From: Stutzerimonas stutzeri RCH2
Lineage (GTDB): Bacteria; Pseudomonadota; Gammaproteobacteria; Pseudomonadales; Pseudomonadaceae
Reading direction: 5' to 3'
Assembly (NCBI RefSeq): GCF_000327065.1
Contig: NC_019936.1
Location: 2,880,001-2,944,000, forward strand
DNA: 64,000 nt
In this document: positions 31,404 to 61,607 of the stretch, piece after piece
Numbering within the stretch: the stretch's first letter is position 1
Layout of the letters: each line of letters starts with the position of its first letter
The notes under the pieces: model-generated
Told to the model about the DNA's origin: nothing
Databases searched by the model: none
Seen by the model: only the letters and a program-made list of their open reading frames with translations
Position numbers and translations under genes: made by a program

Positions 31404-31493
31404 GGTGAGGTGTCCGAGCGGTTGAAGGAGCACGCCTGGAAAGTGTGTATACGAGAAATCGTATCAAGGGTTCGAATCCCTTCCTCACCGCCA
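31404..31493 (+). tRNA. tRNA-Ser (anticodon GGA)
   Basis: A full 90-base tRNA including the encoded CCA. Acceptor arms GGTGAGG (31404-31410) and CCTCACC (31483-31489) pair perfectly; the anticodon stem CACGC/GTGTG closes the loop CTGGAAA, giving anticodon GGA. A long variable arm (TACGA/TCGTA) marks a class II serine tRNA. The T-arm holds TTCGAAT. A strong terminator follows. Confidence 0.97.
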
Positions 31494-31507
31494 TATTCGA
31501 ATCAAGC

Positions 31508-31542
31508 AAAACCCCTGACTTCATACGAAGTCAGGGGTTTTT
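31508..31542 (+). terminator. Intrinsic terminator of tRNA-Ser
   Basis: A 15-bp stem, including the A/T flanks (AAAACCCCTGACTTC and its complement), with loop ATAC and a run of T on the plus side, 15 bases after the tRNA. Confidence 0.85.
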
Positions 31543-31646
31543 GCGTTTAAGGTCCAACGCTCGCCTGCCATACATCCGCCGTCGGTTGCCGCCCTGACCA
31601 AAGCTGTAGCAGATTCGCCCTTCTCTCCTCTTTCGAGACGAAGCCC

Positions 31647-32072
31647 ATGGGCGACCCTTATGATCTGCAGCGTTTCGTCGATGCCCAGCAGGCTCACTAC
31701 GAGCAAGCGCTTAATGAACTGCGCAGCGGCCGAAAGCATTCGCACTGGATGTGGTTCATCTTTCCGCAACTTCAGGGCCTGGGCCGTAGCGCCATGGCAC
31801 AGCGCTACGCCATCTCGGGTCGCGATGAAGCAATCGCTTACCTGCAGCACCCTTTACTGGGAGCGAGGCTGCGGGCGTGCACCGAGGCGATGCTCGAACA
31901 CGGCACTCGCAGCGCTCGACAGATCCTGGGTAGCCCGGATGACCTGAAATTTCATTCCAGCATGACGCTATTTGCCCAGGCGGCATCGGACCCAGCGCTA
32001 TTCGAACAGGCCTTACAGGTCTTTTTCAACGGCCGACCGGATCCGGCCAGCCTGGAGCGACTGAGCGACTGA
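31647..32072 (+). CDS. DUF1810 family protein
   Basis: A 141-residue soluble helical protein with the DUF1810 hallmarks: YDLQRFVDAQ near the start, the HSHWMWFIFPQLQGLG block at about 32-47, and DDLKFHSSMTLFA near residue 98-110. Family function is not established. It follows the tRNA-Ser terminator and is convergent with the secreted protein gene at 32107. Confidence 0.88.
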   Translation: MGDPYDLQRFVDAQQAHYEQALNELRSGRKHSHWMWFIFPQLQGLGRSAMAQRYAISGRDEAIAYLQHPLLGARLRACTEAMLEHGTRSARQILGSPDDLKFHSSMTLFAQAASDPALFEQALQVFFNGRPDPASLERLSD

Positions 32073-34716: not shown

Positions 34717-37183
34717 ATGACGCTGCTCTGGTTACTGGTCCTGCTGCTCGGCATCGCTGTACTCGCCCACCTGCGCGTGTCGCCGGTGCCGGCGCTGGTG
34801 ATCGTCGCCACCTACCTGATCTTCATGACGACCGCCGACACGTCCGGCGTGGTGGTATTCCTGCTCTGGTTGACATTGATTGCCGTCGCGGTGCCGCTGC
34901 TAGTCGCGGATGTTCGCCGCAAGTATTTCAGCGGGCCGATGTTCGACTGGTTCAAGAAGGTGCTACCGCCGATTTCCGCCACCGAGCGCGACGCCATCGA
35001 CGCTGGCACCGTGTGGTGGGACGGCGAGCTGTTCAGCGGCCGCCCGAACTGGGACACCCTGCTCGGCTATCCGAAGGCGCGCCTGACCGCGGAAGAACAA
35101 GCCTTCCTCGACGGCCCTACCGAAACGCTCTGCGCACTGGTCAGCGAATGGGATATCGCGCAACGAATGGACCTGCCGCCGGCCGCCTGGGAGTACATCA
35201 AGGCCGAAGGCTTCTTTGCCCTGATCATCCCCAAGGAATACGGCGGCAAGGGCTTTTCCGCCTATGCCCATTCGCAGATCGTGATGAAGCTGGCGACCCG
35301 CAGCGGCGACCTGGCCAGCACCGTCATGGTGCCCAACTCCCTCGGCCCAGCCGAGCTGCTGATGCACTACGGCACTGAAGAGCAGCGCAACCACTACCTG
35401 CCACGCCTCGCCAACGGCACCGATATCCCCTGCTTCGCCCTGACTGGCCCCTACGCCGGCTCCGACGCCGGCGCGATGAACGACAGCGGCGTGATCTGCC
35501 GCGGCCAATGGCAAGGCGAAGAAGTGCTCGGCCTGCGCCTGAACTGGGAGAAGCGCTACATCACCCTCGGCCCGGTGGCGACCCTGCTCGGTGTGGCCTT
35601 CAAGACCTACGACCCGGATCACCTGCTCGGCGATGAGGAAGAACTGGGCATTAGCCTGGCGCTGATCCCCACCGACACCCCCGGCGTCGACATTGGCCGC
35701 CGTCACTTGCCACTCGGCGCAGCCTTCATGAACGGGCCGAACTGGGGCAAGGACGTCTTCGTGCCGCTGGAAGCGATCATCGGCGGCCGCGACATGATCG
35801 GCAAAGGCTGGATGATGTTGATGAACTGCCTGTCGGTCGGTCGTTCCATTTCCCTGCCCGCGACCGGCACCAGCGCCGCCAAGGTCTGCAGCTACGTGGG
35901 TGGCCGCTATGCGCAGGTCCGCGAGCAGTTCAATGTCCCGCTGGCCGCCTTCGAAGGCATTCAGGAGCCACTGGCGCGCATCGGCGGCAACGCCTGGCTG
36001 ATGGATGCCGCGCGCATCCTTACCGCCAACGCCGTCGACCTGGACCGCCAACGCCGTCGACCTGGGCGAAAAGCCCTCGGTGCTGTCGGCGATACTCAAG
36101 TACCACCTCACCGAGCGCGGCCGCGCGTGCATTACCGATGCCATGGATATTCACGGCGGCAAGGGCATCATCCTCGGCCCGAACAATTACCTGGGACGGC
36201 TGTGGCTGTCGGCGCCGATCTCCATCACCGTCGAAGGCGCCAACATCCTTTCGCGCAACCTGATGATCTTCGGCCAGGGCGCAATCCGCTGCCACCCGTT
36301 CGTGCTGCGTGAGATGGAGCTGGTCCACGAGACGGATCGCGAAGCGGCAGTCGTGAAGTTCGACGACTTGCTGATGCAGCACATCGGCTTCGCCGTCAGC
36401 AATACCGCCAGCACCCTGCTGCTGGGGCTGAGCTTCGGTCTGATGGGGCGAGTGCCAGGGACGAGCGTCACCCAGCCCTACTTCCGCGCGCTCAACCGCA
36501 TCGCCGCGGCGTTCGCCATGCTGGCGGACCTGTCGATGATGCTGCTGGGTGGCGAACTCAAGCGCCGCGAACGGCTGTCAGCACGTCTGGGCGACGTACT
36601 CAGCCATCTCTATCTCGCCTCCGCAGCGCTCAAGCAGTTCCATGACCTCGGCCACCCGACCGCGCAGGAGCCACTGCTGCGCTGGGCGCTGGAAGATTGC
36701 CTGGAGAAAGCCGAAAGCGCGCTACGTGACGTGCTGGCCAACTTCCCCAACCGCATCCTCGGGCACCTGCTGCATGCCTTGGTATTCCCCTTCGGCGCAC
36801 GCCACAAAGGGCCGTCGGATGTACTGGACGCCGAAGTCGCCGCCCTGCTCGGCCGTCCGGAGGGCGATCCGGCGTTGGAAAGCATTCTCGACGGCATGTA
36901 TCGCCCGCATGATCCAGAGCAGCCCCTCGGTTCACTGAAGCACGCGTTCGAGGCCATTGCCAGCAGTCAGGGCACGGCGAAGAAACTGGCCAAGGCGGTG
37001 AAGGCCGGCACCGTACAACCCGCCCCCGGCGAGAGCCTGGTCGACGCAGCATTGACGGCCGGTGTCATCGACGCCGTCGAAGCTGAGCAGCTGCGAACGG
37101 CGGAACTCGCTCGACGCAAGGTCATCGACGTCGACGACTTCGCCAAGGAAGCGCTGGAACTGCAGGAAGGCCGTATCCGCTGA
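34717..37183 (+). pseudogene. fadE: Acyl-CoA dehydrogenase FadE, interrupted by a 22-bp tandem duplication
   Basis: Beta-oxidation dehydrogenase of the long FadE type: two N-terminal membrane helices (about 1-60), then acyl-CoA dehydrogenase domains and a C-terminal extension. Frame one runs from 34717 to a stop at 36312; the correct C-terminal frame resumes near residue 443 and runs to 37183. Between them the 22 bases at 36022-36043 are repeated exactly at 36044-36065, which shifts the frame by one. Removing one copy restores 815 codons, giving 814 residues, the expected FadE length, and joins TANAVDL to GEKPSVLSAI. The lesion falls before the region with MDIHGGKGIILGPNNYLGR, which contributes to the active site, so the truncated product should be inactive. 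Confidence 0.9.
36022..36065 (+). repeat. Exact 22-bp tandem duplication inside fadE
   Basis: Two identical copies (36022-36043, 36044-36065), each starting ACCGCCAACG and ending CGACCTGG. Because 22 is not a multiple of three, the duplication frameshifts fadE. Slippage between copies could restore the gene. Confidence 0.95.
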
Positions 37184-45401: not shown

Positions 45402-45639
45402 CGACCAGCGAGGTAGCCTGGAAGTGACGCGTGGAAAAGGCTTCGCCGTTTTCCACCCTACCTTCGGCAACGTCGATGCGTCGGCGTTGTGGGCGGTTGG
45501 GATGTCGTAGCGAGGTAGCCTGGAAGAAACGCATGGAAAAGGCTCCACCGTTTTCCACCCTACCTCCGGCAACGTCGATGCGTCGGCGGTGTGGGCGGGT
45601 GTGATGGCGTAGGGTGGATAACGCGTTGCTTATCCACCG
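45402..45639. repeat. REP cluster upstream of the RAYT remnant
   Basis: Two copies of the GTGGAAAAGGC...GTTTTCCACCCTAC hairpin (45427-45461, 45529-45563) and one GTAGGGTGGATAACGC...TTATCCACCG hairpin (45609-45639), separated by a repeated spacer (GGCAACGTCGATGCGTCGGC). The same set, minus one copy, is at 46652-46788. Confidence 0.85.
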
Positions 45640-49581: not shown

Positions 49582-50483
49582 TTACCCGGTCAACTCACAC
49601 AACCCACCCGGCACCTTCATCACCCACTCCCTCACCGCCCGAACCGTCGGATCATCCCGACGGCTCTCTGGATATACGAGATGAAACGGCCTGCCCTCCA
49701 TCTCCGGCCCGAACGGCTGCACCAGCCGCCCTTCCCTCAGTTCGTCCTCGATCAACTGCCGACTCATCAACGCCACGCCCTGCGCGCCGATGGCGGCGGA
49801 GATGGCGTGGGTCTCGTCGGAGAAGACCAGCCCGGCGCTCACATCCAGCCGCGGCACGTTGGCGAGCTTCTGCCACGACGCCCAATGAATCGGAGCGGAC
49901 AAGGCGGCTTGCGCACGGAAATGAATCAAAGGGTGTTTGGGCAGCTCAGCAATCGCAAGCCGAGGTGCGGGCTGCAGACCGGGACGAAAGTGTTGTCGAA
50001 CAGCTTCTCCGCTACCAGACCGGGCCAGCGACCGTCGCCGTAGCGGATGGCGATATCCGCCGTGACGCCATCCAGCGCGACTGGCTCATGGGAGGTGTGG
50101 AAGCGCAGATCGATATCGGGGTGGGAATCGCGCAGCAGGCAGACCCAGGGCACCAGCCAGCGCACCGCGATGGCCGGTGTAGTGCTAAGGGTGATTGCCT
50201 GGCGACGAGGCGCCGCGCTGAGGCGTTCGACCGCCCCGCTGATGCTGTCGAAGGCCGTTTCCAACGTCTGTTGCAGCTCCCGCCCCGGGTCGGTCAGTTC
50301 CAGCTTTCGCGGTTTGCGCAGAAACAGCGCCACGCCGAGGGACTCCTCCAGCGAGCGGATCTGGTGGCTGATCGCTGTGGCCGTGACGGACAGCTCCTCG
50401 GCGGCCTGCTTGGCGCTCTCGTGGCGGGCCGCGGCTTCGAAGGCCCGTAGCGCAGAAAGCGAGGGTAACCGGCGGTGCACCAT
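49582..50483 (-). pseudogene. LysR-family regulator, frameshifted (GcvA-like)
   Basis: A LysR-type regulator split in two frames. The N-terminal part (start 50483, MVHRRLPSLSALRAFEAAARH) has the helix-turn-helix (AAEELSVTATAISHQIRSLEESLG) and half of the effector domain, ending at 49926 with a foreign tail. The true C-terminus resumes as AIAELPKHPLIHFRAQ and ends at 49582. Loss of one base in the TTGCG run near 49958 explains the break. It is divergent from the azoreductase gene, its probable former target. A sequencing error is possible. Confidence 0.8.
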
Positions 50484-50600
50484 GGCTGAGTTTCTCTCAC
50501 CTGTAGTTGGAAAAAATGGTCGTTTGTCGCCAGTACAGCCTAGCCCTAGGCTGGATTTACCGCGAACGACAGATGAGTTCAATCACAGAGGAGAATCACC

Positions 50601-60081: not shown

Positions 60082-60461
60082 CCCCGCCTGCGCGACGTGC
60101 TTCTGGGCTGCAGCTGATCCAGCGCGCCGGAGTTCTGCCTCGCCCAGTCGTAGATCAGTTCGATCGGCTCGACCATCAGCTGCCCCAGCGGCGAAAGCGC
60201 ATAGCTCACCTCTGGCGGTACCGAATCGAGCGTGTGGCGCTCGATCAGGCCGCTTTGCTCCAGTTCACGAAGCGTCTGGATCAGCATTTTCTTCGAGATG
60301 CCGGGCAGACTCCGATGCAACGCGCCGCTGCGTGCGGTGCCATCGTGGCGGGCATGCAGCGTGTGCAGAATCATGCTGGTCCACTTGGTGGCGAAGAGTT
60401 CAAGCACGCGTCTCGGCGCGCAGTCTTCACGCCATTGTTCTTCGTCTGAGCCCGGTTGCAT
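60078..60461 (-). CDS. HxlR-family transcriptional regulator
   Basis: A 127-residue MarR/HxlR winged-helix regulator: CAPRRVLELFATKWTSMILHTL, LHRSLPGISKKMLIQTLRELEQSGLIER and PPEVSYALSPLGQLM. One N-terminal cysteine (C14), as in redox-sensing family members. Divergent from the SDR gene, with a candidate palindrome between them. Confidence 0.92.
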   Translation of the reverse strand: MQPGSDEEQWREDCAPRRVLELFATKWTSMILHTLHARHDGTARSGALHRSLPGISKKMLIQTLRELEQSGLIERHTLDSVPPEVSYALSPLGQLMVEPIELIYDWARQNSGALDQLQPRSTSRRRG

Positions 60462-60471
60462 GGGGGATGGT

Positions 60472-60483
60472 CACCATTTGGTG
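60472..60483. promoter_or_regulatory. Candidate HxlR operator
   Basis: CACCA-TT-TGGTG palindrome in the 87-base gap between the HxlR regulator and the divergent SDR gene. Short; may be chance. Confidence 0.3.
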
Positions 60484-60548
60484 CCGACTTGGATCGGCGT
60501 TTTCGAGTGGATAAGGTGCAGGCCTGTTTCGCTTTGTGGGGTCTGCAT

Positions 60549-61607
60549 ATGACAAATCAAGCACTGGTGGTCGGCGCGAGCGGCATCGTCGGCAGCGCGC
60601 TGTCGCGCCTGCTGGCCGATGAAGGCTGGAACGTGGCGGGACTGGCTCGCCGACCGAATATCCAGGCGGGTGTCACGCCGATCAGCGCCGATCTGCTGGA
60701 CCCGAAGGCGCTCGCCTCGGCGCTGGCGGGCATTTCGCCTACTCACGTCTTCCTCAGCACTTGGGCGCGCCAGGCCAGCGAGGCGGAGAATATCCGCGTC
60801 AACGCGCAGATGGTACGCAACCTGCTCGAAGCCGTCCGGCCGGCTGGCACGGTCCGCCACGTAGCGCTGGTCACCGGTCTCAAGCACTACCTCGGCCCGT
60901 TCGAAGCCTACGGCAAGGGCGCGCTGCCGCAGACGCCGTTCCGCGAGGAACAGCGGCGGCTCGATGTCGAGAATTTCTATTACGCCCAGGAAGATGAGCT
61001 GTTCGCCGCCGCTGAGCGGGACGGCTTCAGCTGGAGCGTGCATCGGCCGCACACCATCACCGGCATCGCCGTCGGCAATGCCATGAACATGGCCACCACG
61101 CTGGCCGTGTACGCCTCCATCTGCCGCCACACGGGGCGGCCTTTCCGCTTTCCGGGGTCGGACGTGCAGTGGAACAGCCTGACCGATATGACCGACGCCG
61201 GCCAGCTCGCCAGGCACCTGCGCTGGGCCGCCAGCACGCCGGCAGCCGCCAACCAGGCCTTCAACGTCGTCAATGGCGATGTGTTCCGCTGGAAATGGAT
61301 GTGGTCGCGCATTGCCGAGTGGTTCGGCATCGACGCCGCGCCGTTCGATGGCCCGGCTCCGCTGGAGCAGCAGATGGCGGGCGACGCGGACATCTGGAAC
61401 GACATGACCAAGCAGTTCGGTCTCGCCGAGGCGGACATCGGCAAGCTCGTCTCGCCGTGGCACACCGATGCCGATCTCGGCCGCTTGATCGAGGTGGTGA
61501 CGGACATGTCGAAGAGTCGCAAGCTCGGTTTTCTGGATTATCAGGCCAGCGACGAGGCGTTCTTCGAGGTGTTCGCCAGGCTGCGGGCGAGCAAGCTGAT
61601 TCCCTGA
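60549..61607 (+). CDS. NAD(P)-dependent SDR-family oxidoreductase (PRISE-like)
   Basis: A 352-residue extended SDR. The Rossmann motif is VVGASGIVGSAL (about 7-18). KHYLGPFEAYGKG and the later RRLDVENFYYAQED resemble the progesterone 5-beta-reductase/iridoid-synthase-like (PRISE) group, with SVHRPHTITG after. The ATG at 60549 starts MTNQALVVGASG; no strong ribosome site. Likely regulated by the divergent HxlR protein. Substrate unknown, probably an enone or aldehyde. Confidence 0.87.
   Translation: MTNQALVVGASGIVGSALSRLLADEGWNVAGLARRPNIQAGVTPISADLLDPKALASALAGISPTHVFLSTWARQASEAENIRVNAQMVRNLLEAVRPAGTVRHVALVTGLKHYLGPFEAYGKGALPQTPFREEQRRLDVENFYYAQEDELFAAAERDGFSWSVHRPHTITGIAVGNAMNMATTLAVYASICRHTGRPFRFPGSDVQWNSLTDMTDAGQLARHLRWAASTPAAANQAFNVVNGDVFRWKWMWSRIAEWFGIDAAPFDGPAPLEQQMAGDADIWNDMTKQFGLAEADIGKLVSPWHTDADLGRLIEVVTDMSKSRKLGFLDYQASDEAFFEVFARLRASKLIP

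Follow-up and report, generated by a model that had tools for sequence, protein, structure and literature searches.

A 22-bp tandem duplication splits the fadE gene of Stutzerimonas stutzeri RCH2 into two reading frames

Introduction

The gene fadE of Stutzerimonas stutzeri RCH2, which codes for an acyl-CoA dehydrogenase, is present in the genome sequence as two overlapping open reading frames, and a short stretch of DNA at the break is present twice. Is this an ordinary mutation, a switch that turns the gene off and on in a population, or a break that exists in the assembly and not in the living strain? To answer this question we analyzed a stretch of 64,000 nucleotides containing the locus (called the window in the following; all coordinates without a further label refer to it) and compared fadE with its counterparts in related genomes.

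Results and Discussion

The duplication and the two fadE frames

Self-comparison and Tandem Repeats Finder (TRF) located two copies of a 22-bp unit on the forward strand, the first at positions 36022 to 36043 and the second, identical to it, at 36044 to 36065. Identity at period 22 extends over exactly 44 bases with neither flank adding a base, and TRF reported 100% matches. An exact tandem copy of this length is expected by chance with a frequency of about 4e-9 in 64 kb (64000/4^22). The initial annotation had described two perfect copies that are unlike a base-calling error, and both points are supported by these data.

The unit length of 22 is no multiple of 3, and the duplication shifts the reading frame of fadE. 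The open reading frame list, the Pfam and NCBIfam matches and the match to the orthologue in G006, the genome closest at fadE, define the resulting frames, both on the forward strand. The upstream frame (34717 to 36312, 531 aa) contains FadE residues 1-445 followed by an out-of-frame tail. The downstream frame (36005 to 37183, about 392-393 aa) begins at an out-of-context ATG. Compared with the 814-aa orthologue of G006 the upstream frame corresponds to residues 1-445 with 98.7% identity and the downstream frame to residues 436-814 with 98.2% identity. Subtraction of one unit from the 2467 bases of the locus gives 2445 bases, which is the length of each of the eight orthologues compared. The frame is broken relative to these intact orthologues; no other indel was found in fadE in the comparison with G006 and both halves are open, in line with the earlier statement that the rest of the gene is undamaged.

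The two halves were also examined separately, as they stand in the sequence, for their domain content. The upstream frame matches the N-terminal and middle domains of acyl-CoA dehydrogenases (PF02771 and PF02770) and positions 1-77 of the 150 positions of the helical domain PF00441. The downstream frame matches PF00441 from position 75 to 143 and the whole of PF09317, a domain that is present once in the RCH2 genome. The break is therefore located at about positions 75-77 of PF00441, and PF09317 is found entirely in the other frame. On the NCBIfam model PRK09463 (726 positions) the upstream half covers positions 1-365 and the downstream half positions 355-725, so that both halves jointly span the model over its full length. 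The gene resembles the E. coli-type FadE in that both halves match the corresponding models (PRK09463/FadE_coli and PF09317); it differs from this type in being broken in RCH2, whereas 53 of the 54 PF09317-containing genomes of the genus have an open gene. As the split lies in the middle of the helical domain, the activity of the enzyme encoded by fadE is, judged from the sequence, very probably lost.

fadE in related genomes

At fadE the closest genome, G006, shows 95% DNA identity over the gene. Among the 80 records listed from the named collection Pseudomonas songnenensis is the closest relative, with 97% protein identity (372-aa query) and 91.65% DNA identity across fadE, and the next named species are Stutzerimonas kunmingensis and S. 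chloritidismutans. The site of the duplication was compared in 109 loci of relatives, 80 from the named collection and 29 from a search of the genus, partly from the same genomes. All 109 loci contain a single copy, and exactly 22 alignment columns are missing there. When 398 family genomes from a larger group were searched for the 44-bp array, allowing at most 3 mismatches, it was found in the RCH2 genome alone.

Intactness of the gene was judged by the length of the open frame, as a motif-based count proved too strict for 53 of the 109 loci. In the genus, PF09317 is present in 54 of 56 genomes, and the two genomes without a match have a completeness of 71% and 73%. In 53 of these 54 genomes the open frame is 818 aa long or longer, compared with 393 aa in RCH2. 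In the family sample PF09317 is present in 156 of 198 genomes; the other 42 lack it, so that not every member of the family has the gene. Every match listed for this sample has an open frame of at least 811 aa with the exception of RCH2, and two genomes with weak double PF09317 matches turned out to be open on recheck (857 and 838 aa). A duplication common to the lineage is ruled out by the single copy in all 109 loci, by the search of the 398 genomes and by the open frames in the genus.

Proteins related to the two halves were searched in a collection clustered at 90% identity, with 120 matches listed per search. Coverage of the 531-aa frame is at most 84% in the matches listed, which means that none of them carries the frameshifted tail. 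The two best C-terminal fragments, P0121 and P0122, both run through the single-copy site. Because of the clustering, and because further matches exist beyond those listed, strains with the same frameshifted proteins could be hidden in these results. One listed protein, P0169, is a Pseudomonas-like FadE C-terminal protein filed under Streptococcus dysgalactiae; this record is probably contaminated or mislabelled.

These searches bear on the idea that both frames are translated, the second one after reinitiation at the ATG at position 36005, and that the halves assemble to a split enzyme. This ATG is in frame with the downstream half and precedes the break, and Pfam matches are retained in both halves. 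On the other side, the break is inside a single helical domain, the tail is absent from the 120 relatives of the upstream frame listed, the best C-terminal fragments are not interrupted at the site, and inspection by eye revealed no good ribosome-binding site in front of position 36005. We consider a split enzyme extremely unlikely.

Age of the break

Substitutions in fadE were polarised with the outgroups G017 and G021; array codons, outgroup-discordant sites and two sites fitting neither branch were excluded from the count. The RCH2 branch shows 6 nonsynonymous and 18 synonymous changes, the G006 branch 5 and 29, and the ratios of the two branches do not differ significantly (Fisher p = 0.50). 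With a nonsynonymous share of 0.72 expected, neutrality over the whole RCH2 branch was rejected (P = 1.9e-6). Purifying selection is still visible in the substitutions and there is no further decay, which indicates that the break is young and happened late on the branch. The same pattern bears out the earlier assumption of a recent event and rules out an old pseudogene.

Consequence for beta-oxidation

The initial annotation had suggested that fatty-acid beta-oxidation could be switched off by the break. This suggestion is not supported. The RCH2 genome contains 18 matches to PF00441; two are the fadE halves and the 16 others are open frames of 384 to 743 aa with no internal stops. Two of these, L124 and L125, are relatives of enzymes with known structure: L124 matches the PDB chains 8PNS and 8PU5 (603 residues) and L125 the chains 8PNG and 8R1E (594 residues), in both cases along the whole chain except for the first two residues. 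We take PA2815 to be the P. aeruginosa counterpart of E. coli-type FadE. This locus name is absent from the text of a study of the P. aeruginosa enzymes FadE1 (PA0506, 601 residues) and FadE2 (PA0508, 592 residues), which are described there as the main dehydrogenases of beta-oxidation (PMC11890623). The four PDB entries are deposits of this study, and the assignment of entries to FadE1 and FadE2 was made here from the lengths. According to the same study PA4435, PA1631 and PA5187 are further homologues which are induced less (PMC11890623).

The full-length relatives of FadE1 and FadE2, L124 and L125, are open in RCH2, and they are untouched by the duplication, in contrast to fadE. They belong to a separate subfamily that has PF12806 and lacks a match to PF09317. 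The 16 open matches, including the FadE1- and FadE2-like proteins, argue against a stop of all fatty-acid oxidation, and with these genes open the breakdown of fat is probably not switched off by the break in fadE. The frameshift within PF00441 would abolish one enzyme, the E. coli-type FadE, and its loss would be tolerated if the other acyl-CoA dehydrogenases cover the step. In the long run this loss is probably not free, since the frame is open in every other genus genome with the gene (53 genomes).

Formation and reversibility

The most plausible explanation for the locus is a recent spontaneous 22-bp tandem duplication that created an ordinary loss-of-function allele of fadE, revertible in principle; we regard this as probable. 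The duplication may have arisen by an accident of replication or of end joining. The strict microhomology at the junction is 0 bp on both sides of the unit, and two short inverted repeats are located next to it on the forward strand. The left one (GGATGC-CGCGC-GCATCC, 36003 to 36019) ends 2 bp 5' of the array, and the right one (GGGC-GAAAA-GCCC, 36064 to 36076) shares its first 2 bp with the end of the array; any role of the two elements is presumed from their position. Pausing or slipping of the polymerase at hairpins has been seen for deletions between direct repeats (PMC4134008). Folding of the DNA of the array region was unremarkable compared with shuffled sequences (z of -1.0 for one strand and -1.3 for the other), which makes the flanking inverted repeats a weak clue. 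A match to the Ku domain is present in the RCH2 genome, so that the unit may also have been duplicated when a staggered break was filled in and its ends were joined.

The pattern of the left inverted repeat occurs in 2 and that of the right one in 16 of the 29 genus loci. Both together stand on either side of the duplicated unit in RCH2 and were found in none of the 29.

A comparable mutation is described for lrp of Xenorhabdus nematophila, where tandem duplications of 26-116 bp account for 3 of 25 lrp mutations, with loss of function; the mutants are described there as plain mutants rather than phase variants (PMC6786866). As in fadE, a short coding stretch is duplicated in tandem and alters the gene. 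The present case differs from this example in that fadE is a metabolic gene and the unit has 22 bp, and it is known from one assembly rather than from an experiment.

As with any perfect tandem duplication, loss of one copy could undo the break in fadE. The initial annotation had gone further and proposed that beta-oxidation could be switched off and on in a population. On this reading the duplication would be gained and lost at a high rate and would diversify the use of fatty acids. Slippage can remove one of two perfect tandem copies, the frame arithmetic allows restoration of the gene and the unit is flanked by short inverted repeats. In fission yeast, tandem duplications that can revert have been described within the coding region of ssp1 (PMC13207564), and the fadE array shares with this case a short coding duplication which could in principle be lost. 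In yeast the duplications are defined by pairs of microhomology; in fadE no such pair exists at the ends of the unit, with 0 bp on both sides. The array was moreover seen once and with two copies only, and no variation in copy number at the 22-bp site was detected among the 109 loci and 398 genomes, each species being represented by one genome. In Xenorhabdus genetic reversion of lrp was observed in 0 of 8 isolates, and the account of these tests does not state whether a duplication was among the eight (PMC6786866). The other dehydrogenases would also blunt the phenotype of a switch. On these grounds the proposed population switch did not find support, and we judge it very unlikely; nothing at the locus shows a maintained switch. 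A usable bacterial reversion rate for short tandem duplications was not found in openly licensed papers.

Rather speculative, and hardly to be expected, is a hot spot of the lineage in which the 22-bp segment between the two inverted repeats is repeatedly duplicated without microhomology and lost again, giving mixed populations with and without FadE and a two-copy contingency locus in a catabolic gene. If the copy number varied in cultures, fadE would provide a simple case for determining the rates of gain and loss of microhomology-free short duplications in a bacterial chromosome. Under the preferred reading of an ordinary recent loss-of-function allele, the finding as it stands matters little: it concerns one strain with likely backups. 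In the annotation, fadE of RCH2 should be marked as a pseudogene, frameshifted and perhaps revertible.

Assembly and frame differences elsewhere

The duplication could also result from the assembly, if two contig ends overlapping by 22 bp had been joined unmerged; fadE of the living strain would then be intact. An overlap left unmerged would produce just this picture, an exact 2 x 22 array with a junction free of microhomology. The 53 other genus genomes that contain PF09317 all have an open FadE, and besides fadE at least one gene of the window, coding for a LysR regulator, differs in frame from G006. Against an artefact stand the ordinary local GC content around the array (0.67), the size of the main contig (4.58 Mb, out of 4.60 Mb in the 4 contigs of the assembly) and the lack of a recurrent 22-bp signature in 384 kb of the genome. 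We therefore regard an assembly artefact as unlikely, and a recent duplication in the strain itself is the reading we prefer.

For the last point exact arrays with units of 7-300 bp were searched in the window and 16 further stretches, which sum up to these 384 kb or about 8% of the genome. No systematic 22-bp duplication artefact was found in this part; with units of at least 13 bp there are only two other exact arrays, one with a 156-bp unit and one GGT run. Exact arrays with units of 13-150 bp are rare in the relatives as well: 563 kb around fadE in the 80 loci of the named collection contain two, with units of 116 bp and 18 bp, and a TCTACC run is the sole one in 480 kb of G006.

Frame differences between the RCH2 and G006 assemblies are not confined to fadE, as a comparison of the open reading frames in the window revealed. 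Four of the 40 matched G006 frames are split in RCH2, and 4 of 45 are split in the reverse direction, one of the latter being the 531-aa fadE frame itself. Some of these splits are effects of ORF calling. The four G006 frames split in RCH2 are fadE, the LysR gene, a poorly conserved frame of 219 aa at about 31445-32069 and a frame at 60238-61394. The last one is probably due to an over-long start choice, because an epimerase-type domain is found only in its downstream part and no domain in the 101-aa upstream part. Beyond the window, where the stretches of G006 were matched by guessed position, 52 of 362 G006 frames had a counterpart and 3 were split in RCH2; in the reverse direction 47 of 281 had a counterpart and 1 was split in G006.

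The gene for the LysR-type regulator (49591-50582, reverse strand) occupies two frames where the orthologue in G006 has a single one of 332 aa, owing to a net difference of 4 bp. This split may reflect decay or a slip of the assembly.

Two other repeats were observed in the RCH2 genome. The exact 156-bp array is located on contig 1 at about 444,290-444,640 (L136:19290-19640), comprises about 2.25 copies and starts with GTAGGGTGGATG. Within the window, a 102-bp unit occurs twice in tandem with 90% matches at 45407-45612, just 5' of a 345-aa open frame at 45614.
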